DNA of 50,446 nucleotides from Verrucomicrobiota bacterium (GTDB taxonomy: Bacteria > Verrucomicrobiota > Verrucomicrobiia > Limisphaerales > J093): NCBI GenBank assembly GCA_022710935.1, contig JAKLFY010000047.1, positions 1-50,446 of the forward strand. Reading direction: 5' to 3'. The translations under genes and the position numbers were made by a program. Under the pieces are notes generated by a model, which was given only the letters and a program-made list of their open reading frames with translations, did not search any database and was not told the origin of the DNA. Shown here in pieces: positions 2,871-44,126 of this stretch. Within the stretch, counting starts at the first letter, position 1, and every line of letters starts with the position of its first letter.

Positions 2871-4109
2871 ATGAACCTCGACTCTCTGTACTCGGAACTG
2901 ACCCTCCCGACCAAGGCCAAGCTCGCCTTGATCGTTCTGGACGGCCTGGGCGACCTCGCGGTCGTTGGCCAGGGCGAAATCACGCCGCTCGAAGCCGCGC
3001 GCACGCCCAATCTCGACGCCTTTGTCGCCCAGGGCTGCGCCCAGGGCCGCATGATCCCCGTGGCGCAGGGCATCACCCCTGGCAGCGGCCCCGGCCATCT
3101 GGCCCTCTTCGGCTATGACCCGATCGAGTACCAGGTCGGACGCGGCGTCATCGAGGCCCTGGGCCTGGGCGTGCACCTGAAGGCCGGCGATGTCGCCGCC
3201 CGCGCCAATTTTTGTTCTCTCGATTCCAAGGGGATCATCACCGACCGCCGCGCGGGCCGGATCGCCACCGACGTGTGCGAGGAACTCTGCGCCATCCTCT
3301 CGCAGGGAATCAAGAAGGCCGGCCCGAAAGGCAGCGAGGTCGAGGTCATCATCCAGCCCGGCAAGGAACACCGGTTCGTCGTCGTCTTCCGCGGCGAAGG
3401 CCTGGCCGGCCCCCTGACATCAACCGATCCGAACCGGGAAGGCCTGCCGATCGCCATCGCCAAGCCCGAGAACGAGAAATCAGCGGCGCAGGTGAAGACG
3501 GCGAAGATCGTGGCGGACTTCTACAAGCGGGCGTTGCCGCTGATCGCCAAGCATCCGCGGGCGAACGGCTTCCTGATGCGCGGCATCGCCCATCAGCCGC
3601 GGATTCCGCTGTTCCAGGAGCGCTACCAACTCAAGGCGGCGTGCCTGGCGGTCTACCCGATGTACAAGGGACTCGCCCAGTTGGTCGGGATGACCAAGAT
3701 CGAAGGACCCAAGACCATCGCCGAACAATTCGAGCGTTACCTGGCGGAGTACGACAACTACGACTTCTTCTTCATCCACTACAAGTACACCGACAAGGCC
3801 GGTGAAGACGGCAACTTCGAAGCCAAAAAGAAGGCCATCGAGGATTTCGACGCCGCCCTCCCAATCCTCCTACGCAAGAAGCCGGACGTCATCGCCATCA
3901 CCGGCGATCACTCGACCCCGTGCGCGGTCAAGGGCCACTCGTGGCACCCCCAGCCGGTCCTCGTGCACTCCGCGTTAAGCGGATCGGACAAGCTCGAGCG
4001 CTTCACCGAGACGGGCTCGAACATGGGATCGCTCGGCGTCTTCAAAGCCAAGTACCTCATCCGCCTTATGCAGGCCAACGCGCGGATGTTCGACAAGTTC
4101 GGCGCCTGA
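2871..4109 (+). CDS. apgM: 2,3-bisphosphoglycerate-independent phosphoglycerate mutase, archaeal type
   Basis: Interconverts 3- and 2-phosphoglycerate in glycolysis. The 412-residue protein belongs to the alkaline-phosphatase-superfamily mutases of archaeal (ApgM) type, close to the usual length of about 400. Visible hallmarks are the metal-binding Asp in IVLDG (D24), the phosphorylated serine in TPGSGPGHLALFGYD (S72), the VGRGVIEALG segment, and the C-terminal metal ligands in TGDHSTP (D346, H347) and HSWHP (H356, H359). It starts with ATG; no strong ribosome site is seen. It converges on the cytochrome gene, with a strong hairpin between them. Cytoplasmic and probably housekeeping. Confidence 0.92.
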   Translation: MNLDSLYSELTLPTKAKLALIVLDGLGDLAVVGQGEITPLEAARTPNLDAFVAQGCAQGRMIPVAQGITPGSGPGHLALFGYDPIEYQVGRGVIEALGLGVHLKAGDVAARANFCSLDSKGIITDRRAGRIATDVCEELCAILSQGIKKAGPKGSEVEVIIQPGKEHRFVVVFRGEGLAGPLTSTDPNREGLPIAIAKPENEKSAAQVKTAKIVADFYKRALPLIAKHPRANGFLMRGIAHQPRIPLFQERYQLKAACLAVYPMYKGLAQLVGMTKIEGPKTIAEQFERYLAEYDNYDFFFIHYKYTDKAGEDGNFEAKKKAIEDFDAALPILLRKKPDVIAITGDHSTPCAVKGHSWHPQPVLVHSALSGSDKLERFTETGSNMGSLGVFKAKYLIRLMQANARMFDKFGA

Positions 4110-4119
4110 TCCCGACACC

Positions 4120-4147
4120 GAGGCGCGACCACACTCGGTCGCGCCTC
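4120..4147. terminator. Hairpin between convergent genes
   Basis: A perfect 11-bp stem (GAGGCGCGACC / GGTCGCGCCTC) with a 6-base loop lies between the convergent mutase and cytochrome genes. There is no U-tract, so termination would be weak or Rho-assisted. It may act in both directions. Confidence 0.55.
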
Positions 4148-4197
4148 ATCGCGAAATCAGCGGCCTGCTTCGGTCCGCGCTCCGGAGACAAAGCCGC

Positions 4198-6096
4198 TCA
4201 GAGCGAAAGCACGTACTCGGCCAGATCGCTCAGCTCGATCGGCGTCAGGCCCGACGTGCGCCCGTGACGGTCGTCCGGATTCGCCTCGCCCAGCACGTCG
4301 CGCATGGTGGCGGCCCGCCCGTCATGCAGATACGGCGCGGTCCGCCAACACTCGATCAGCGTCGGCGTGTCCATCGACTTTCCCTGTTCACGCCCCGTCC
4401 CCATCCCGACATCGTGATGCCGCAAGTCGGTGTACAGGGGCGGCGGATGGCACTCGGCGCACCCGGCGCGCTGGAAGATCTGCTGGCCCCGCTGCGCTGC
4501 CCCGCTCAGATCCTTGCCTTGCCGATGGGGGCTGAGGCCGGGGCGAAGGTTCTTGAGGTAGACGTCGATGGCGACCGCCTCTTCCTCGGGCCGCACGAGA
4601 AACTGAATGTGGCGAATGCCGGCCCGCACCGCATCCTCGGCCGTCTCCCGCACGCCCATGATCATCGCCGGCGGCGTCTCGTGGCTGAGCAGCATGTTCT
4701 TGGTGTTTTTCGGATTCCCCAGCCCGTCGTTGAGAAGATCCCAGTTCAACCCGTCCACCCGGGCGTCCGGATGGCAACTGGCGCAGCTCTGCCAATGCTG
4801 AAAACAGAGCCGCGCATCGTTGAAGAGCATCTCGCCGCGCCGTGCCTGCGTCGGCGCAACAGCCGGACCGAGCGGAAATGACTTGGCCCGCGGCGGCCCG
4901 GCGGCCGCCAGATCCACCAGACCCAGGCTGTCCGAGTAGTACTCGGCAACGAACAGACGCTCGCCCACCAAAGCCACCCCCCGCGGCCCCTCCCCACTCA
5001 AATTCACCCGGCGCCGCAACCCGACCAGGAAACTCAGGTCGTTCGGCACGTCCTCGGACGAAAGGCTCGCGCCGCCAACCCGTTCGCCCGCCCCGATCCG
5101 ACGCAGCTTCTCGATCAGACCGGGCTGGTCGATGACGCTCACCTCGTGCGTGCCGGCGTGGCTGACGACGATCCAGCGCCCGTCACTCGAACAGGCCACG
5201 CCCCACGGATTCGCCGCGCCCAGGTCCACGTCGTCCACCAGCACCGTGTTGATGCGTTCGGCCTTGGCCACATCGATCACACTCAACGCCGAGGTGTTCA
5301 TCCAGCCGCGGTCCAATTGCGTCGTGGGCATCTGGTAGCGCCCAAGCCCGTGCGTCGCATACACGACCGCGCCGTCGCCCGACACCGCCAGACCGCGCAC
5401 CGCCGTGCTGCCATTGGGAAGCTGAATCTGGGCCACAGGCTCGAGCCGTTCCGTGTCGATCGCGCTGATCGCCGCCGCAATCTCCGCGGCGTCCGCCCGG
5501 CCCGCGGGAAGGTGGTTGCCCACAAACAAACGCCGCCCATCCGGTGTCAGGGCCAGCGCAACCGGCTCCCGCACGACCGGGATCCGCCCAAGCTCCCGGC
5601 CGCCCTTCCAGTCGATCACACTGACGTCGTGGTTGAACCGGTTCGCGACGTAGAGCCGCGCGCCATCCGGTGACACCGCGAGCGCGGACGGCGTGTGGCC
5701 GGCGCGCACCAATCGCTCGACGCGCCCCGAACGCGCGTCGCAAACCTCGATCTGCCCGGACGCTTCACCGGTCGCCACGATCAACCGCGTCCCGTCCGGC
5801 GTGAGCGCCAGCGCGTTCGCATGGCCCTCGAGTGCGGTCGCGCTCCGGACCTCGCCGCTCCCGGCGTCGACGACCAGCACCCGCCCAGCCGTCCCGGCAG
5901 CCACAAAAAGCGTCGCGCCATCGGGAGAAGCGGCGATTGCCACCGGCGAAAGATACTGCTCCGCGTCAGCCGCTCGCGCCCACCCCCCAGCCCAAAGGCA
6001 AAGAGACAACCAGATCTCAACCCGACACCATCTGGGGCGACGGGCGGTGCGGACAACAGCCCCAACAACGCGCGGAGTGGTCAAGCGGACGTGCAT
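4198..6096 (-). CDS. YVTN beta-propeller / di-haem cytochrome c peroxidase-like protein
   Basis: A 632-residue predicted exported protein with two parts. After an N-terminal hydrophobic segment ending near ARA-AD, residues about 45-400 form a beta-propeller with repeated YVTN-type blades (SPDGxxLYVAN, TPDGRRLFVGN, DVSVIDWKGG). The C-terminal third resembles MauG/cytochrome c peroxidase: two c-type haem motifs, CASCH (near residue 438) and CAECH (near 545), followed by HDGRAATMRDVL and a closing LTPIELSDLAEYVLSL. Such fusions are common in Planctomycetes and Verrucomicrobiota as periplasmic redox proteins, but their substrates are largely unknown. It starts with ATG at 6096 and converges on the mutase gene. 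The start region borders a mosaic repeat. Confidence 0.85.
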   Translation of the reverse strand: MHVRLTTPRVVGAVVRTARRPRWCRVEIWLSLCLWAGGWARAADAEQYLSPVAIAASPDGATLFVAAGTAGRVLVVDAGSGEVRSATALEGHANALALTPDGTRLIVATGEASGQIEVCDARSGRVERLVRAGHTPSALAVSPDGARLYVANRFNHDVSVIDWKGGRELGRIPVVREPVALALTPDGRRLFVGNHLPAGRADAAEIAAAISAIDTERLEPVAQIQLPNGSTAVRGLAVSGDGAVVYATHGLGRYQMPTTQLDRGWMNTSALSVIDVAKAERINTVLVDDVDLGAANPWGVACSSDGRWIVVSHAGTHEVSVIDQPGLIEKLRRIGAGERVGGASLSSEDVPNDLSFLVGLRRRVNLSGEGPRGVALVGERLFVAEYYSDSLGLVDLAAAGPPRAKSFPLGPAVAPTQARRGEMLFNDARLCFQHWQSCASCHPDARVDGLNWDLLNDGLGNPKNTKNMLLSHETPPAMIMGVRETAEDAVRAGIRHIQFLVRPEEEAVAIDVYLKNLRPGLSPHRQGKDLSGAAQRGQQIFQRAGCAECHPPPLYTDLRHHDVGMGTGREQGKSMDTPTLIECWRTAPYLHDGRAATMRDVLGEANPDDRHGRTSGLTPIELSDLAEYVLSL

Positions 6097-6158: not shown

Positions 6159-6351
6159 CAGCGCCAATTCATGAAGACGAAAAGGCTGGAGGGGGGACGG
6201 CCCTCCCGTGCTCTGCTCGTGCACACGAAGGCGTAGGAGTGGGGACGTCCTCGTCCCCGGCCAATGGAGTCGCACAATGTGTTGGCGGGGCGACGAGGAC
6301 GTCTCGTCCCCCGCCATTGCGAGTGAACACGGTGTTTCTCGGCGACGGGCC
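6159..6351 (+). repeat. Mosaic intergenic repeat, copy 1 (modules A-B-C-D)
   Basis: This occupies most of the 6097-6515 gap, which holds no gene. Four modules shared with the repeat near 42.2 kb are recognisable: A (6159-6197, starts CAGCGCCAAT), B (6209-6239, TGCTCTGCTCG), C (6254-6303, ends GACGAGGACGTC) and D (6304-6351, contains GTGAACACGGTGTTTCTCGG). Perfect short hairpins lie at 6241-6258 (GGGGACG/CGTCCCC) and around 6292-6309 (GACGAG/CTCGTC). In the other copy B and C are in the opposite order. Confidence 0.7.
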
Positions 6352-6515
6352 GTCGCCGCTCCACTTCCTGAATCGGCCCTGCGACAAACCCGACACCCAA
6401 CCTTGCGCCTTCGCCTAAACCGGCTACAGTGCGCACGTCTCCGCCTGCCGCCGGCATGCCGCCGCCCGGTCCAGTGGCGGGACCCGGAAAACGCAACACT
6501 GAAAGGATAACTGCT

Positions 6516-15845: not shown

Positions 15846-15964
15846 GGCACGCCCCACGCGGGCGTGCCCGAAAGCGTTCCTGTGAGGGCATGCCAGTGCC
15901 TGAGTTGGGGCGTGAGTAGGTCACGCCCCTTCATTTTTCAGGCACTCGCACCCTCACGGAACGC
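15846..15964. repeat. Cluster of palindromes before the restriction gene
   Basis: A 9-bp hairpin (GGCACGCCC/GGGCGTGCC, 15846-15868) is followed by a nested near-palindrome from 15874 to 15964. Its outer arms are GCGTTCCTGTGAGGG and CCCTCACGGAACGC (one base missing), the middle arms AGTGCCTGA and TCAGGCACT (perfect, 15895-15903 and 15938-15946), and the inner stem GGGGCGTGA/TCACGCCCC (perfect, 15907-15929). The inner stem is followed by TTCATTTTT and could act as a terminator for rightward transcription. It resembles REP/BIME-like elements. Confidence 0.65.
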
Positions 15965-16040
15965 AAGCCATCCCCAGACCCGCCTGCGTCAAGACTCCGG
16001 CGGGCAGGCAGGGCTGATTCGCACGCGAGCGTTTCAGCCC

Positions 16041-19000
16041 ATGCCCAACCGCTCAAGAGGACGTGGAGCGTCCCGCCGGCGCCACACCGGCGCTGGCCAG
16101 CTCGACCTTGCCATCGCCGACGAGACAGGAGACAAACCGGTCACCTGTCGCGGGCTGTTTTCGGCCAACTACCTTCGCCGCCACTTTCCGAACCACGAAT
16201 CCTTCTCCAAAACCGAGGAAATTGCGGAGCTATATCAGGCCGCCCGCCGCCGCTGGGAAGACAACGCCGATGGCTTGCGGAACCAGAACGAAGCTTACAC
16301 CCGCACCCAGTTTCTCGATCCGCTGCTCGGCGGTCTTGGCTGGCAGTTTATTCCCGAAACCCAGCTCCCGCGCGGCACAAAGATCGAGAGACCCGACTAC
16401 TGCCTCTTCCCGGACGCCGCCCGCCGCCAGCAGGCCGCCGCCCAGCCGACCAACGCCGCCACCTTCCCTTTCGCCGACTCCGTGCTCGAAGCCAAACGCT
16501 GGGGGCACTCGCTCGACAAGGTGTCCGAGCGCGAAACGCCTGGTCGCTTTCCCGCCGAGCAAATCGAGAGCTACCTCCGCGCCGCGAAGGACGCCACCGG
16601 CCGCCGCTTGTTCAACTGGGCCATCCTCAGCAATGGCGCGCGCTGGCGGCTTTACACCGAGCACGCAGGCAACGGCGCGACCTTCGAGTTCACGCTGGTG
16701 GACTCGCGCGGGCAGTTCTGCTCGATCGAGGATTTCCGCCTGTTCGCCGCGCTGTTTCGTCCGGCGGCCTTCGCGCGCGATGCCGACGGACGTTGCCTGC
16801 TGGACCGCGTCCGCGAGGAATCCCTCAATCGGCAGCTCGAACTCGAGGAGAACCTTCGCGAACGCATCTTCGATGTCCTCGAAGACCTCGCCAACGCCTT
16901 TCGCGAGCACGCGCCCAACCAAATCACCCCCATGGACTACCCGGCGCTCTATCAGACCTCGCTCATCTTCCTCTACCGGCTGTTGTTTGTGCTCTACGCC
17001 GAGAGCCGGGAGCTCCTGCCGGTGTTTCTGCCGCCGCGCGAGGGGGCGAGCCTCCTCTATCGCAACCGCTTCTCGCTCGCCGCGCTCGTGCCGCGCCTAA
17101 AGCAACCCGCCGCCGATTTCCAGTCCGGCACGCTCTGCGACCTTTACCAACGCCTGCTCGACCTCTTCCACCTGATTGACGGCGACAGCGAGGCCTTGAA
17201 CCGCGAAGCCAAGGTCACCCGCTACAACGGCGGCCTGTTCGACGCCACCCAGAATCCGCACATCGAACGCTGGCGCGTGCCGGACCGCGCGCTCGCGCAC
17301 GTCCTGCAACAGTTCATCTTCGCCCAGCCGCCCGCCAGCGGTCGCCGCCGCCAGCAGCAAATCGTCACCGACGAAACGGTGGACTACGCCTCGCTGGAAG
17401 TCCGCCAGCTTGGCGACATCTACGAGGGCCTGTTGGGCGCGCATCTGGAGGCAGACGCCACCGGCCGGCTCACGCTGCGCAACGAAAAGGGCGAGAACCA
17501 CCGCGAAGGCATCTACTACACGCCGGACTGGGTTGTGACCTATCTTGTTCGCGAAACCCTCCAGCCTTTGCTCGATGAGATTGACCGGAGCGAGTCGGTT
17601 CAGAACGCCCTGCGCCAGCGCAGCGAGGAGCGCCGCCGCGACAACTCCTTCACCCACGCCGTCCTGCGCCTCAACGTCCTCGACCCCGCGATGGGCAGCG
17701 GCCACTTCCTCGTCCGGGCCACGGTATTCCTGGCCGACGCCATCCGCAAGCACCCGACCACCCGCGTCATGACCGCGCAGGTGGTCACGCACGGCCAGCA
17801 ACGCCGCACCCGCCGCGACATCGAGCAGGCCGGCCTCGTGCCCGTGCCGCCCGGCGTTTCCCAGCAGCAGGCCGAGACCGCTTACTGGCGTCGCCGCGTC
17901 GTCGAGGCGTGCATCTACGGCGTGGACCTCAATCCGCTGGCCGTCGAACTCACCAAGCTCTCGCTCTGGCTCACCTGCATCGCCGTGGACGAGCCGTTGA
18001 ACTTCCTGGACCACCACCTGTGCCAAGGTAATTCGCTGCTATCCGCCGCCACCGAGGAACTCGGCCACAGCCCGCACGCTACCTTCGACGAGCGCGACCG
18101 ACAGGTCGTGCTGCCGCAAGATCAACTCGCCAGCGCCCTCCGTGCGGTCATCGCTGAGAATCACCGCATCGAGGGCACTTATGCCACACACATGGCCGAG
18201 GTGAAGGACAAGGAGCGCCGCTGGCGCGCCGTCCGTGCCCAGATGAAACCATTCATCGAGATCGCCGACCTCTGGCTCGCCGCCGCCGACGGGCTGGCCG
18301 TCAACGAGCTGGATTACCAAACCCTCGTCCGTCTTGCGCTGAACCAGCTTCCGCGCCCCGAGCGCGCCGCCGCCGAACGGTTGGCCGACTCTTTCGCCGA
18401 CGCATTGAAGGTCAGGCGCGAAGCCCACCGCGCCTTTCACTGGCAGCTTGAACTGCCCGACGTGTTCTTCGCCGAGGACGGCTCACCGCGCCCGGTGGCG
18501 GGACGCGGTTTCGACGCCATGCTGGGCAACCCGCCTTACATCACACGCCAGACCATGTCGGGCCAGCCGTGGCTGGCGCTGGCCGACGCCCGCCTCGGCT
18601 ACGCGCAGGACACCTACGAATGGTTCACCCGCCTGGGCTTCCGGCTGCTCCGGCCCGGCGGGCGCATCGGCTTCATCACCGCGGACACTTTCTTCACCCT
18701 CGAAAACTTCACCACGCTGCGCGAACTGCTGCAAAGCCAAGAACTCACGCACCTCGGCCAGTGCGATCCCTTCGACGCCACCGTGGACGCCGCCATCTTT
18801 GTGGCGCGGAAAAAGGGGAGCGCAGGCGTCGCGCCTGCCGATTCCGGCGTCCCGCCGGAATCATTGTCCACACAGACCGCGGCTCGCGAGGCGCGAGCGC
18901 TCCCCACCGAAACGCTCCTCTTCATCCAAGCCCGACCACGAACGGCTCGCGATGGCCGCAAGACACGACCGGACAAATGGCTCAACCAACTTCCCTACGC

Positions 19001-20657
19001 GCAGGACTTGCCCGCAATCGCCACCACGCCGCTGCCGGGCGAACTCGGCACGGCCACGCACATGCAGCTCGGTCCGCCCGACGCGCCGGACACGTTGCGC
19101 CTTCACCGCGTGCCCGTGGCGCTTTACCGGGCGGCGCACAAACGCGCCTTCTTCGAGCCGCGTCCCGGCACCCTCCGGCTGTTCGCGCGGTTCAACGAAC
19201 CGGTGAAACGCCTCGTCGCCGAATGGTGGCCGCGCATCGAAACCTCGGAGAAGTTCACTGACAACGCCGCCCCCATCCAAGCATACCAGCGCACGTTGCG
19301 CCCGGGCGACGTGACGCTCGTCGGCCTCGTCGCCCAGGGCGGCCAGGGGATGCGAACGGCCAACAATGCCCGTTTCCTCGGCTACCTCGCTGGCACACCG
19401 CAGGCGAGGGACATCCTCGCCCGCCGTGAAGAATGGACGCAGCGCTGGCTCGCCAGTCCGAAAATCCGGCCCGTTTTCCTGGACCTGCTCGCCAAACACG
19501 GCGGAGACCCGGCGCATCCCACGCGCAACAGCGCCGCGTGGGAAGCCTGCGTCGAGCCGCTCCGCGAGGAGTTCGACGCGCGGGAACTCGGCTTTGGCAA
19601 GACCGACCTTTACCGCATCGTGCCTGCCGAATTGGCTGCGGTCGAGGACGACTTCCAGTTTGCCTGGCAGCAACGCAAAGCAGAACTGCTCGCCCGGTGG
19701 CGCAGTGAGGCAAGCCTTGCGGGCTTTTGGCGGACAGACGAGCTGGGCGCGAGCGAAGAACGGCAACGCGCCCGCAGGCTCAAGAAGGGGAAGACCGTTT
19801 CCGACGACGACTTCTGCCTGCTCTGCCAAGAGCTTCAACGCTGGGTGGCCGAGGAAAACGCCGTCCGCAAACGCCAGCGGCTACCGACCATCCCGCGCGA
19901 CGCCCTTGGCATGCGATCCGCCGAGAATTACATCGACACCGCCGACGTGCCGCGCATCGCCACCATCTACAATGGCCTGAGCGCGCGCGGCCAGTTCGTG
20001 CCGTTTCGCAAAGGCGACCCCGAAGGCAACCGCTGGGTGGACAACGAGCCGCTGTTCGTCTGCTGGTCGAGGGAAAACGTGGATTGGCTTTCGACTGCGC
20101 CAGAAGCGCGATGGCAGGGACACAGGTTCTTTCTAACAGCGGGTATCACCTGGACCGCCGTCGCCAACCATGTCGCCATGAAGGCGCGTTACCAAGATCC
20201 GTGCGTTTTTGACGCCGACAGCATGCGGTTGACGCCGCGTGCGTCTGTCATCCATCCGCTGGCGTTCCTTGCTCTGCTGAACTCGAACGTCGTGAGCTTC
20301 CTGAAGCTGAAGTTCATGAAGCACACGCAGAAGTGGGAGATTGGGGATCTCCGGCAGTTGCCCTTGGTCACGCCCAGGGCAGCGGAAGCGCGGCGATTGC
20401 AGCAGTTGGCAGAGCGGGCGATGGAAGCCAAGCGCCTGACCTTCACCGGTGGCGACGCGCCCCACGCGCTGGTCGCCTTCGCCCGCAACCTGAGCGCCGA
20501 CCTGCTCGCCCACGCACCCGCCTACCTGCATCCGCCCGCGCAACAGCGCCTGCTGGCCACCCCCGCCGACTGCCTCGAAGTCATCGAACTGGCCGTGAAC
20601 TGGGAAGCCGAGAAACTCTACGGTGTGGAAGGCCGCGGCCCATTCGACGAGTTTTGA
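16041..20657 (+). CDS. Type IIG-like restriction endonuclease/DNA methyltransferase
   Basis: A protein of about 1538 residues that joins nuclease, N6-adenine methyltransferase and specificity parts in one chain. A PD-(D/E)xK-like site is visible near the N-terminus: Asp in IERPDYCLF (about residue 119) and EAK in VLEAKRWG (about 150-152). The methyltransferase motif I is DPAMGSGHF (about 548), then IYGVDLNPLAVELTKLSLWL, and the catalytic NPPY (about 829). The C-terminal third (NYIDTADVPRIA, FLKLKFMKHTQKWEIGDLRQLPLV) looks like the target-recognition region of Eco57I/PglX-like enzymes. The ATG at 16041 is uncertain because a palindromic repeat covers codons 5-20. A 91-base palindromic element lies in frame at about residues 925-955. 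No partner restriction or BREX gene is adjacent; gene fragments flank it on both sides. Confidence 0.88.
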   Translation: MPNRSRGRGASRRRHTGAGQLDLAIADETGDKPVTCRGLFSANYLRRHFPNHESFSKTEEIAELYQAARRRWEDNADGLRNQNEAYTRTQFLDPLLGGLGWQFIPETQLPRGTKIERPDYCLFPDAARRQQAAAQPTNAATFPFADSVLEAKRWGHSLDKVSERETPGRFPAEQIESYLRAAKDATGRRLFNWAILSNGARWRLYTEHAGNGATFEFTLVDSRGQFCSIEDFRLFAALFRPAAFARDADGRCLLDRVREESLNRQLELEENLRERIFDVLEDLANAFREHAPNQITPMDYPALYQTSLIFLYRLLFVLYAESRELLPVFLPPREGASLLYRNRFSLAALVPRLKQPAADFQSGTLCDLYQRLLDLFHLIDGDSEALNREAKVTRYNGGLFDATQNPHIERWRVPDRALAHVLQQFIFAQPPASGRRRQQQIVTDETVDYASLEVRQLGDIYEGLLGAHLEADATGRLTLRNEKGENHREGIYYTPDWVVTYLVRETLQPLLDEIDRSESVQNALRQRSEERRRDNSFTHAVLRLNVLDPAMGSGHFLVRATVFLADAIRKHPTTRVMTAQVVTHGQQRRTRRDIEQAGLVPVPPGVSQQQAETAYWRRRVVEACIYGVDLNPLAVELTKLSLWLTCIAVDEPLNFLDHHLCQGNSLLSAATEELGHSPHATFDERDRQVVLPQDQLASALRAVIAENHRIEGTYATHMAEVKDKERRWRAVRAQMKPFIEIADLWLAAADGLAVNELDYQTLVRLALNQLPRPERAAAERLADSFADALKVRREAHRAFHWQLELPDVFFAEDGSPRPVAGRGFDAMLGNPPYITRQTMSGQPWLALADARLGYAQDTYEWFTRLGFRLLRPGGRIGFITADTFFTLENFTTLRELLQSQELTHLGQCDPFDATVDAAIFVARKKGSAGVAPADSGVPPESLSTQTAAREARALPTETLLFIQARPRTARDGRKTRPDKWLNQLPYAQDLPAIATTPLPGELGTATHMQLGPPDAPDTLRLHRVPVALYRAAHKRAFFEPRPGTLRLFARFNEPVKRLVAEWWPRIETSEKFTDNAAPIQAYQRTLRPGDVTLVGLVAQGGQGMRTANNARFLGYLAGTPQARDILARREEWTQRWLASPKIRPVFLDLLAKHGGDPAHPTRNSAAWEACVEPLREEFDARELGFGKTDLYRIVPAELAAVEDDFQFAWQQRKAELLARWRSEASLAGFWRTDELGASEERQRARRLKKGKTVSDDDFCLLCQELQRWVAEENAVRKRQRLPTIPRDALGMRSAENYIDTADVPRIATIYNGLSARGQFVPFRKGDPEGNRWVDNEPLFVCWSRENVDWLSTAPEARWQGHRFFLTAGITWTAVANHVAMKARYQDPCVFDADSMRLTPRASVIHPLAFLALLNSNVVSFLKLKFMKHTQKWEIGDLRQLPLVTPRAAEARRLQQLAERAMEAKRLTFTGGDAPHALVAFARNLSADLLAHAPAYLHPPAQQRLLATPADCLEVIELAVNWEAEKLYGVEGRGPFDEF
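16055..16100. repeat. Palindromic element overlapping the restriction gene's first codons
   Basis: This GC-rich stretch (GAGCGTCCCGCCGGCGCCAC, then ACCGGCGCTGGCC) has a 6-bp stem CGCCGG/CCGGCG. Read on the minus strand it aligns with the end of the in-frame element at 18815-18905 (about 18 of 24 bases), and its frame-1 translation gives the same PAGATPAL-like string that the other element gives in antisense. Confidence 0.45.
18815..18905. repeat. 91-base palindromic element inside the coding sequence
   Basis: Terminal inverted repeats GGGGAGCGC (18815-18823) and GCGCTCCCC (18897-18905) enclose three perfect hairpins: GCAGGCG/CGCCTGC (18822-18838), GATTCCGGCG/CGCCGGAATC (18840-18862) and GCTCGCG/CGCGAGC (18882-18898). 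The reading frame stays open and adds about 30 residues (AGVAPADSGVPPESL, then AREARALPT) between the methyltransferase core (VFVARKKG) and the following TLLFIQARPR segment. Confidence 0.82.
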
Positions 20658-42156: not shown

Positions 42157-42345
42157 CAGCGCCAATCTATGAGGACGACAAGGCCCGAGGGGGGTACTGT
42201 TCGTCCCCGATCAATGGAAGCGCGGCATCTGCTCGCGGGCGACGAGGACGTCGCCCCTCCACTGCTCTGCTCGCACACACGAAGGTGCAGGAGCGATTCG
42301 TCCCCCGCCATCGCGAGTGAAGGCGGTGTTTGTCGGCGGCGGGCC
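42157..42345 (+). repeat. Mosaic intergenic repeat, copy 2 (modules A-C-B-D)
   Basis: It shares four modules with 6159-6351 but in another order: A (42157-42195), C (42204-42252, ends GACGAGGACGTC), B (42263-42293, TGCTCTGCTCG) and D (42298-42345, CGCGAGTGAAGGCGGTGTTT). It lies between the riboswitch and the end of the MFS gene. D is extended by GC-rich repeats (CCGCCCGGCAGGCAGGCG). Confidence 0.7.
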
Positions 42346-42379
42346 TTGCCGCCCGGCAGGCAGGCGTCCCCGCTCGACT

Positions 42380-43894
42380 TCATGAATTGGTCCTGCGCCC
42401 CGGGCGATCCACCAGCTCGCGCTCGATTTGTTCGAGCGATTTTCCCTTGGTCTCCGGCAGTCGGAACCAAAGCACCACGAACCCCGTGGCGCAGATCGCC
42501 GCGTAGATCCAGAACGTGTAGGACACGCCCAGCAGGGTCTTGAAGATCGGGAACGTGTAGGTGAGCAGGAAACAGGCGATCCAGAGGGCGCCGACGGCGA
42601 TCGACATCGCGGTGCCGCGGATGCGGTTGGGGAAGATCTCGGAGATGAGCACCCAGACCACGGGCGCCAGCGACATCGAGTACGTGCCGATGGCCGCCAG
42701 AACCAAGGCGAGGAACAGGATCGGGGGCACGGGCGTGCCCGTTGCCTTGAGGTGATAACAGGCCCCGATCGCCAGGTAGATCACCGTCAAGCCGGCCGCT
42801 CCGAAGAGCATCAGCGGCCTGCGCCCCAATCGGTCGACGGTGAACAGCGCCACAAAGACGAAGACCAGGTTCACCACGCCTGTGGCGACGATGTTGGTGA
42901 GGGCGTCGTTCAGGTTGAACCCGGCCTGGGCGAAGATCTCGCTGGCGTAATTGAAGATGACATTGATGCCGCACCATTGCTGGAACACCGCCAGGAAGAT
43001 CCCCAGGCCCAGCACGACCAGCACCCGCCGGTCGAGCAGGTCGCCCAAACGAACACGCCTGTCTTCACCGGTCAAAGTCGCTTGGATTTCGGCCATCGCC
43101 GCCGACGCATAGGACGCGCCGCCAATGCGCGACAGGATTCCCTCCGCCCGACTGCCTGATCCCGCCTTGCAGAGCCAGCGCGGGCTTTCCGGCACGAACA
43201 GAGCGCTGACAAAGAACAGCAGCGACGGCACCGCACAGGCACCAAACATCCAGCGCCAGCCGTGCGTCACGTTCCACGACGCCGCGAATGCGTCCGCGGA
43301 CATCCCATCCGGGATTGGGCGGGCGATGCACCAGTTCACGAATTGCGCGGCCAGGATGCCGATGACGATGGTGAGTTGGTTGATGGCGACGAGCAGCCCG
43401 CGCTGTCTGGCGGGGGCGATCTCGGAGATGTACAGAGGTGAGATGTTCGACGCCAGCCCGATGCTGACGCCACCCATGATCCGCCACGTGACGAACACCG
43501 GGAAGCTCTGGGCAAAGGCGATGCCGAGCGACGACGCCACAAAGTTGAACGCCGCCACGATGAGGATCGGTTTGCGTCCGAATCGGTCGCTCAGAGGTCC
43601 GGAGACGATCGCGCCGACCAGGCACCCCAGGAGCGCGCAGCTCTGCGCCCAGCCCACCGGCGAGATCGCGTTGGCCCTGACCTTGGCCCAGAAACCGGGC
43701 TCGGCGGCGAGGGCTTGGGCGGTGTCCTTGAGTTGGAAGAAGGCCTCGTAGAACTTCGCTGCCCCGCCGATCACCACCCAATCGTAACCGAACAGCAGCC
43801 CGCCCAGCGCGGCGACGAGGCAGATGGTCCAGATGTAACGTGTGTTGAGACGCGCTTCGAGATTCGAACCGGAGGCGGTCGTGGCGGTGATCAT
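42380..43894 (-). CDS. MFS sugar transporter (sugar porter family)
   Basis: A 504-residue permease of the major facilitator superfamily, sugar porter type, probably a sugar/H+ symporter in the inner membrane. It shows the family signatures: LGGLLFGYDWVVIGG in TM1, DRFGRKP in the loop after TM2, RIMGGVSIGLASNISPLYISEIAP, PESPRWL at the end of TM6, VDRLGRRPLMLFG after TM8 and RLPETKGKSLEQIE at the C-terminus. Twelve membrane segments fit the length. It starts with ATG. It is the only sugar importer in the window, so it may take up products of the nearby hydrolases; the sugar is unknown. It is divergent from gcvT across a gap full of repeats. Confidence 0.93.
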   Translation of the reverse strand: MITATTASGSNLEARLNTRYIWTICLVAALGGLLFGYDWVVIGGAAKFYEAFFQLKDTAQALAAEPGFWAKVRANAISPVGWAQSCALLGCLVGAIVSGPLSDRFGRKPILIVAAFNFVASSLGIAFAQSFPVFVTWRIMGGVSIGLASNISPLYISEIAPARQRGLLVAINQLTIVIGILAAQFVNWCIARPIPDGMSADAFAASWNVTHGWRWMFGACAVPSLLFFVSALFVPESPRWLCKAGSGSRAEGILSRIGGASYASAAMAEIQATLTGEDRRVRLGDLLDRRVLVVLGLGIFLAVFQQWCGINVIFNYASEIFAQAGFNLNDALTNIVATGVVNLVFVFVALFTVDRLGRRPLMLFGAAGLTVIYLAIGACYHLKATGTPVPPILFLALVLAAIGTYSMSLAPVVWVLISEIFPNRIRGTAMSIAVGALWIACFLLTYTFPIFKTLLGVSYTFWIYAAICATGFVVLWFRLPETKGKSLEQIERELVDRPGRRTNS

Positions 43895-44046: not shown

Positions 44047-44076
44047 GGTGAAGCCGGTGTTTGTCGGCGACGGGCC
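44047..44076 (+). repeat. Module D of the mosaic repeat, copy 3
   Basis: GGTGAAGCCGGTGTTTGTCG, then GCGACGGGCC, is a third copy of the D module (compare 42320-42345 and 6322-6351), without modules A, B or C. It sits between the MFS and gcvT genes. Confidence 0.6.
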
Positions 44077-44126
44077 CTGCCTGCGCCGCGTGGGGGCACG
44101 CGGCCTACAATCGGTGTCATCAACTT

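Follow-up and report, generated by a model that had tools for sequence, protein, structure and literature searches.

A gene for a predicted DNA methyltransferase in a Verrucomicrobiota genome (GenBank assembly GCA_022710935.1) carries within its open reading frame a 91-base palindromic composite, which in our judgment is likely a REP-type element from a GGAG-tagged branch of the GTAG REP superfamily, non-autonomous, moved by RAYT transposases, and tolerated in a loop of the protein. The composite (GGGGAGCGCAGGCGTCGCGCCTGCCGATTCCGGCGTCCCGCCGGAATCATTGTCCACACAGACCGCGGCTCGCGAGGCGCGAGCGCTCCCC) lies in the window, the 50,446-nucleotide stretch of contig JAKLFY010000047.1 analyzed here, and is built like a BIME, as a head-to-head dimer that encloses an additional hairpin (Table 1). 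The original prediction had described nine-base inverted ends around three tandem perfect hairpins, with the reading frame passing through them and gaining about 30 residues, and this description is borne out. The ends, GGGGAGCGC and GCGCTCCCC, are perfect 9-bp inverted repeats, the stems have lengths of 7, 10, and 7, and the surrounding frame of 1597 aa remains open throughout, reading VARKK, then GSAGVAPADSGVPPESLSTQTAAREARALP, and then TETLLF across the element with no break. A scan of the whole 50-kb window for stems of at least 7 with loops of 3 to 6 returned 48 hits, some of them double-counted, and three in a row within 91 bases were found only at this position. The predicted RNA folding energy of the element is −59.3 kcal/mol, compared with −39.3 ± 3.5 kcal/mol for dinucleotide shuffles, none of which reached so low a value (0 of 300; z −5.7).

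Table 1. Features of the palindromic composite and its host gene, in window coordinates.
Feature	Position	Strand	Basis
Inserted palindromic composite, GGAG-tagged, REP/BIME-like, ~30 residues in frame	18815..18905	+	inverted ends, hairpins, homolog comparison, folding
Left end GGGGAGCGC; tag GGAG at 18817-18820	18815..18823	+	sequence
Hairpin 1, GCAGGCG-TCG-CGCCTGC, unit common to many genomes	18822..18838	+	stem 7, loop 3
Hairpin 2, GATTCCGGCG-TCC-CGCCGGAATC, common to the G410 valyl-tRNA synthetase composite (L422, L129)	18840..18862	+	stem 10, loop 3
Hairpin 3, GCTCGCG-AGG-CGCGAGC, right-hand unit in opposite orientation	18882..18898	-	stem 7, loop 3
Right end GCGCTCCCC; inverse tag CTCC at 18900-18903	18897..18905	-	sequence
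Putative host gene, Type IIG/DrmMI-PglX-like DNA methyltransferase (Eco57I methylase domain)	15864..20657	+	frame open throughout

The terminal unit of the composite, a GGAG-C-hairpin, belongs to a widespread family. The pattern GGAGCGCNNGCGNCNCGCNNGC matches 32 of 58 relatives, one of which holds 121 copies (60 + 61), against a total of three for the reversed control. In a sample of 42 distinct GGAG forms drawn from the matches listed, 71 of 84 pairs at free stem positions are standard pairs, compared with 41.8 in shuffles. A GTAG version, GTAGCGCAGNCNTCCNGNCTGC, is present in 14 of the 58 genomes with no control matches, and base pairing is likewise kept at its variable positions. The GGAG tag of the window element occupies the position of GTAG in the sister hairpin GTAGCGCAGACTTCCAGTCTGC, from which GGAGCGCAGGCGTCCCGCCTGC differs by the tag and two compensated stem pairs. 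Outside the phylum, records carrying the GGAG unit bear the names Acidobacteria, Planctomycetota, Dehalococcoidia, Bacteroidales, Armatimonadetes, Chloroflexi, and others, and the units there are frequently arranged in inverted pairs. Single units also stand alone in many genomes. Features expected of a REP are seen in the short hairpin (stem 7, loop 3, where REPs have stems of 6 to 13 bp and a small loop), its compensatory stem changes, and its occurrence at high copy number, under-represented in open frames and in inverted pairs (up to 121 copies in one relative, with low copy number in the window's own genome); the tag at the hairpin foot is GGAG instead of GTAG or one of its listed variants, and we therefore file the element as a variant and not as a GTAG REP. 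The hairpin GCAGGCGTCYCGCCTGC occurs in other genomes (L063-L071, L072, L078) behind other 5′ tags (GTACC, GTGGT, and GGGACC), which suggests that one hairpin stem carries lineage-specific tags.

Units of this kind are joined into composites of ~90 to 110 bp with constant ends, GGGGAGCG..CGCTCCCC. The first 48 bases of the window element match the composite in a valyl-tRNA synthetase gene of another genus (G410) at 44 of 48 positions, with a score of 40 where the best of 500 shuffles reached 19.5. By the same shuffle test, the composites of three further genomes (G389, G402, and G411) show weaker but significant matches, and that of G399 shows no significant match. Within its own 7.5-Mb genome, the exact 91-mer has no second copy, an outcome that, taken literally, the original prediction had named as able to refute it. 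However, its GGGAGCGC..GCGCTCCC ends recur there on two composites, the genome is enriched in GGAGCG-tagged hairpins (16 vs 3.6 expected in the 1.2 Mb of stretches on which these statistics are based, with a P of 1e-6 that is too optimistic given that four of the 16 form one tandem array), and relatives in the order carry the same composite in other genes. The core GGCGTCNCGCC by itself is not enriched in the genome (117 vs 109 for the reversed control), and the family is therefore not recognizable at home by its core alone. The genome also holds a resident palindromic family of at least 40 copies, in which a GGAGCG hairpin pair lies inside outer inverted repeats CCAATTCATGAAG/CTTCATGAATTGG; copies in the window are at 6304-6361, 42282-42380, and 44048-44081. 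Elsewhere in the same genome (L317, ~4041-4457, C68), GGAGCGGGGACGTCCTCGTCCCCG hairpins form a tandem array in 104-bp steps.

RAYT-like single-strand transposases probably move these units, as suggested by the gene neighborhoods of the hairpins. In an acidobacterium (L100), a RAYT gene (~2488-2995) lies between inverted arrays of GGAGCGCAGGCGTCTCGCCTGC-type hairpins, an arrangement that corresponds to the REPtron layout. At two other loci (L109 and L269), a RAYT frame runs straight into such hairpins at its 3′ end, those of L269 bearing another tag. In the window's own genome, no RAYT gene clearly has the unit on its flanks, apart from one with a composite of the resident family ~110 bp upstream (L353, ~2140). 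Because most RAYT genes in ten other hairpin-rich genomes are likewise not flanked by it, the link to the transposase rests on three loci. The original prediction had pointed to target-site duplication as a feature to look for: no duplication is visible at the methylase locus, and 28 related composites show none of fixed length, with only a slight excess of matches of 2 to 3 bases (mean 1.2 vs 0.8). The flanking palindromy of the composites is inverted and not direct. Such an absence of target duplication is as expected for an HUH/Y1 enzyme. A RAYT transposase of this class, supplied in trans, may copy the units into fresh locations in the form of single-stranded hairpins.

These observations bear on the possibility that the composite is instead a MITE, the deleted relic of an insertion sequence with a DDE transposase, which would have short terminal inverted repeats and move by cut and paste with target duplication. 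Perfect 9-bp inverted ends, composites of ~90 to 110 bp with constant termini, and the further outer repeats of the resident family would all suit such an origin. However, the interior consists of hairpins in tandem whose stems covary, single units occur on their own in many genomes, and neither this locus nor the 28 composites bear the fixed-length duplication that a cut-and-paste element would leave. We consider a MITE improbable.

The host product is, by sequence, an Eco57I-type DNA methyltransferase near the DrmMI/PglX-like defense methylases. Its motifs DPAMGSG (17682) and NPPY (18528) are intact, and both lie upstream of the insert. Relative to an ortholog from another genus of the same family (G394; 81% identical), dN/dS is ~0.16 in the 100 codons before the insert and 0.20 in the 576 codons after it, so the gene appears to be alive. 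The host gene is under purifying selection and, with its insert, apparently a working methylase gene. An AlphaFold model of the methylase made with eight sequences has a mean pLDDT of 50, too poor for judging the loop. The annotated start is the GTG at 15864; the true start may lie downstream of it, and is probably further downstream. Two strong hairpins overlap the annotated GTG (15846-15929), and a short way past it (~16060-16100) there is a GGAGCG with a degenerate palindrome behind it.

Alignment with homologs identifies the element as an insertion. Seven homologs from the phylum, up to ~56% identical over this part, pass from VARK to LFxQARP by a short linker where the window protein has 38 residues, and the ~21 to 26 residues that they lack are missing exactly at the element. 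The linker is variable among homologs, and no exact empty-site allele was found at the locus. In the G394 ortholog, the same codon holds a different, GTAG-tagged composite, CGTAGCGCAGATTTCCAATCTGCC..GCAGACTGGAAGTCTGCGCTACG, followed by TGCGCTCCCC, and the frame is open there too. The TGCGCTCCCC segment resembles the right-hand terminus of a GGGGAGCGCA element and would be a relic of a GGAG composite. A GTAG composite and a GGAG relic at the codon occupied in the window would mean that the site was struck at least twice, or that one composite partly replaced another.

Copies within genes are also found in other members of the order and beyond it. In the G410 valyl-tRNA synthetase, the composite adds ~40 residues between positions matching residues 363 and 379 of 1gax, and a genome from another family of the order (G420) carries a different GGAG composite at the same site (L422, L423); after that in the methylase, this would be the second position to have been re-occupied. 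Compared with 8c9e, an isoleucyl-tRNA synthetase (L121) is longer by ~38 residues between residues 415 and 417 of that structure. Further in-frame composites lie in an altronate dehydratase (G402) and a DUF7133 protein (G416), a planctomycete FAD oxidoreductase has two inserts, and Lhr and UvrD helicases carry in-frame copies as well. One planctomycete insert (L091) is flanked by a 13-bp imperfect direct repeat, and its ortholog is not a clean empty site. The encoded peptides recur in unrelated proteins as GSAGVxPA .. AG(E/G)TPALP, and we found no paper on them (SAGVSPA, AGETPALP, and others) in the open-access literature. The family nonetheless avoids genes overall: 32% of 125 cross-phylum elements lie in stop-free open frames, compared with 75% of random positions, so the in-gene copies are a tolerated minority. 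The idea of a family of mobile palindromes that can settle in genes is accordingly upheld at the level of the order, and a second in-gene copy within the window's own genome is unproven. Within a DUF1156 methylase frame of 1244 aa (L159:3430-7161, minus strand), a RAYT-like Y1_Tnp domain is found together with a GGAG composite, and three other genomes (G228, G032, and G125) have similar long frames that match Y1_Tnp.

Both orthologs of the family keep an insert at the methylase codon, as do two valyl-tRNA synthetase genes of the order at a shared site of their own; together with the strong RNA folding, this could indicate that the hairpins are retained for a role in the methylase protein or its mRNA (e.g., pausing or stability). 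Against such a function, the inserts at the methylase codon differ in sequence, in length (91 bp vs ~140 bp), and in the peptide encoded, the same peptides appear in unrelated proteins, and the seven homologs do without an insert; we regard it as quite unlikely, and the extra 30 residues are most likely functionless in themselves. For the REP-type composite that we favor, insertions that yield a stop-free, in-frame stretch in a flexible loop would survive selection, and a site so tolerated could then act as a landing pad in which one REP composite nests inside another or takes its place.

The element had been likened to the Rickettsia palindromic elements, and the analogy holds for behavior and fails for sequence kinship. 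Like them (RPE-4 and RPE-6 being CGTC REPs), the composites enter unrelated conserved genes in frame and leave them unbroken, with 20 to 40 added residues in the methylase, the valyl- and isoleucyl-tRNA synthetases, the altronate dehydratase, and others. CGTC REPs, however, have a terminal CGTC tag, stems of 8 to 9 bp whose first pairs are AT, and a tail of CCA (PMC3733652), whereas the tag of the window unit is GGAG, its stem is GC, and it belongs with the GTAG REP superfamily as a variant; the Rickettsia elements also come from another lineage and have no known transposase. A true Rickettsia-type element is therefore very improbable, and we reject this identity on tag and stem. Chance palindromes in a GC-rich linker that does vary among homologs, or an assembly artifact, are hardly credible and stand refuted by the folding z score, the homologous composite in another genus, and the related composite at the same codon of the ortholog.

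In-frame REPs within genes are already known, also in a verrucomicrobium; what is new here is the GGAG tag, its breadth, and the re-occupied sites. Together with the Rickettsia elements, such REPs are the clearest cases of selfish DNA giving working proteins new peptide. The record at this locus is unusually complete, comprising the gene without an insert, with a GGAG composite, and with a GTAG composite plus an apparent GGAG relic at the same codon. More tentatively, and with greater doubt than confidence, we propose that the GGAG hairpins mark a branch of REP/RAYT systems that uses a guide tetranucleotide of its own and is distributed over many phyla. Its composites would repeatedly enter the same codons of conserved proteins and swap in place with GTAG composites, such that certain protein loops would serve as long-lived docking sites for REPs.

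Among the closest known systems are the GTAG REPs, which, with the CGTC REPs, were described in many phyla and with dimers by Di Nocera et al. (2013; PMC3733652). In-frame copies within genes were reported there most often in Opitutus terrae (Verrucomicrobia) and Rickettsia conorii, tRNA synthetase and repair genes included. Features in common with the GTAG REPs, including the intragenic dimers of O. terrae, are short tagged hairpins arranged as head-to-head dimers, sub-families whose stem changes are complementary, in-gene dimers that encode 20 to 30 residues, insertion into genes for tRNA synthetases and for repair, and, probably, a RAYT link. The elements described here differ in their GGAG tag, in composites of three to four hairpins in conserved order, and in a terminal unit found in many phyla. 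GGAG is absent from the tags listed in PMC3733652 (GTAG variants GYAG, GYRG, GTRG, GTMG, and GTGG) and from the texts, without figures, of the open papers PMC6006769 and PMC8266576. Those two studies of RAYT/TnpA-REP systems with REPINs and BIMEs share with our element the tetranucleotide 5′ of the hairpin foot and, at L100, a RAYT gene flanked by inverted REP arrays; the RAYT-adjacent REPs that they describe have GT[AG]G feet or atypical ones such as CnGA, unlike the GGAG found here. A known phenomenon is thereby extended to a GGAG tag over many phyla, and the specificity of RAYT guides becomes testable by comparing GGAG with GTAG hairpins.
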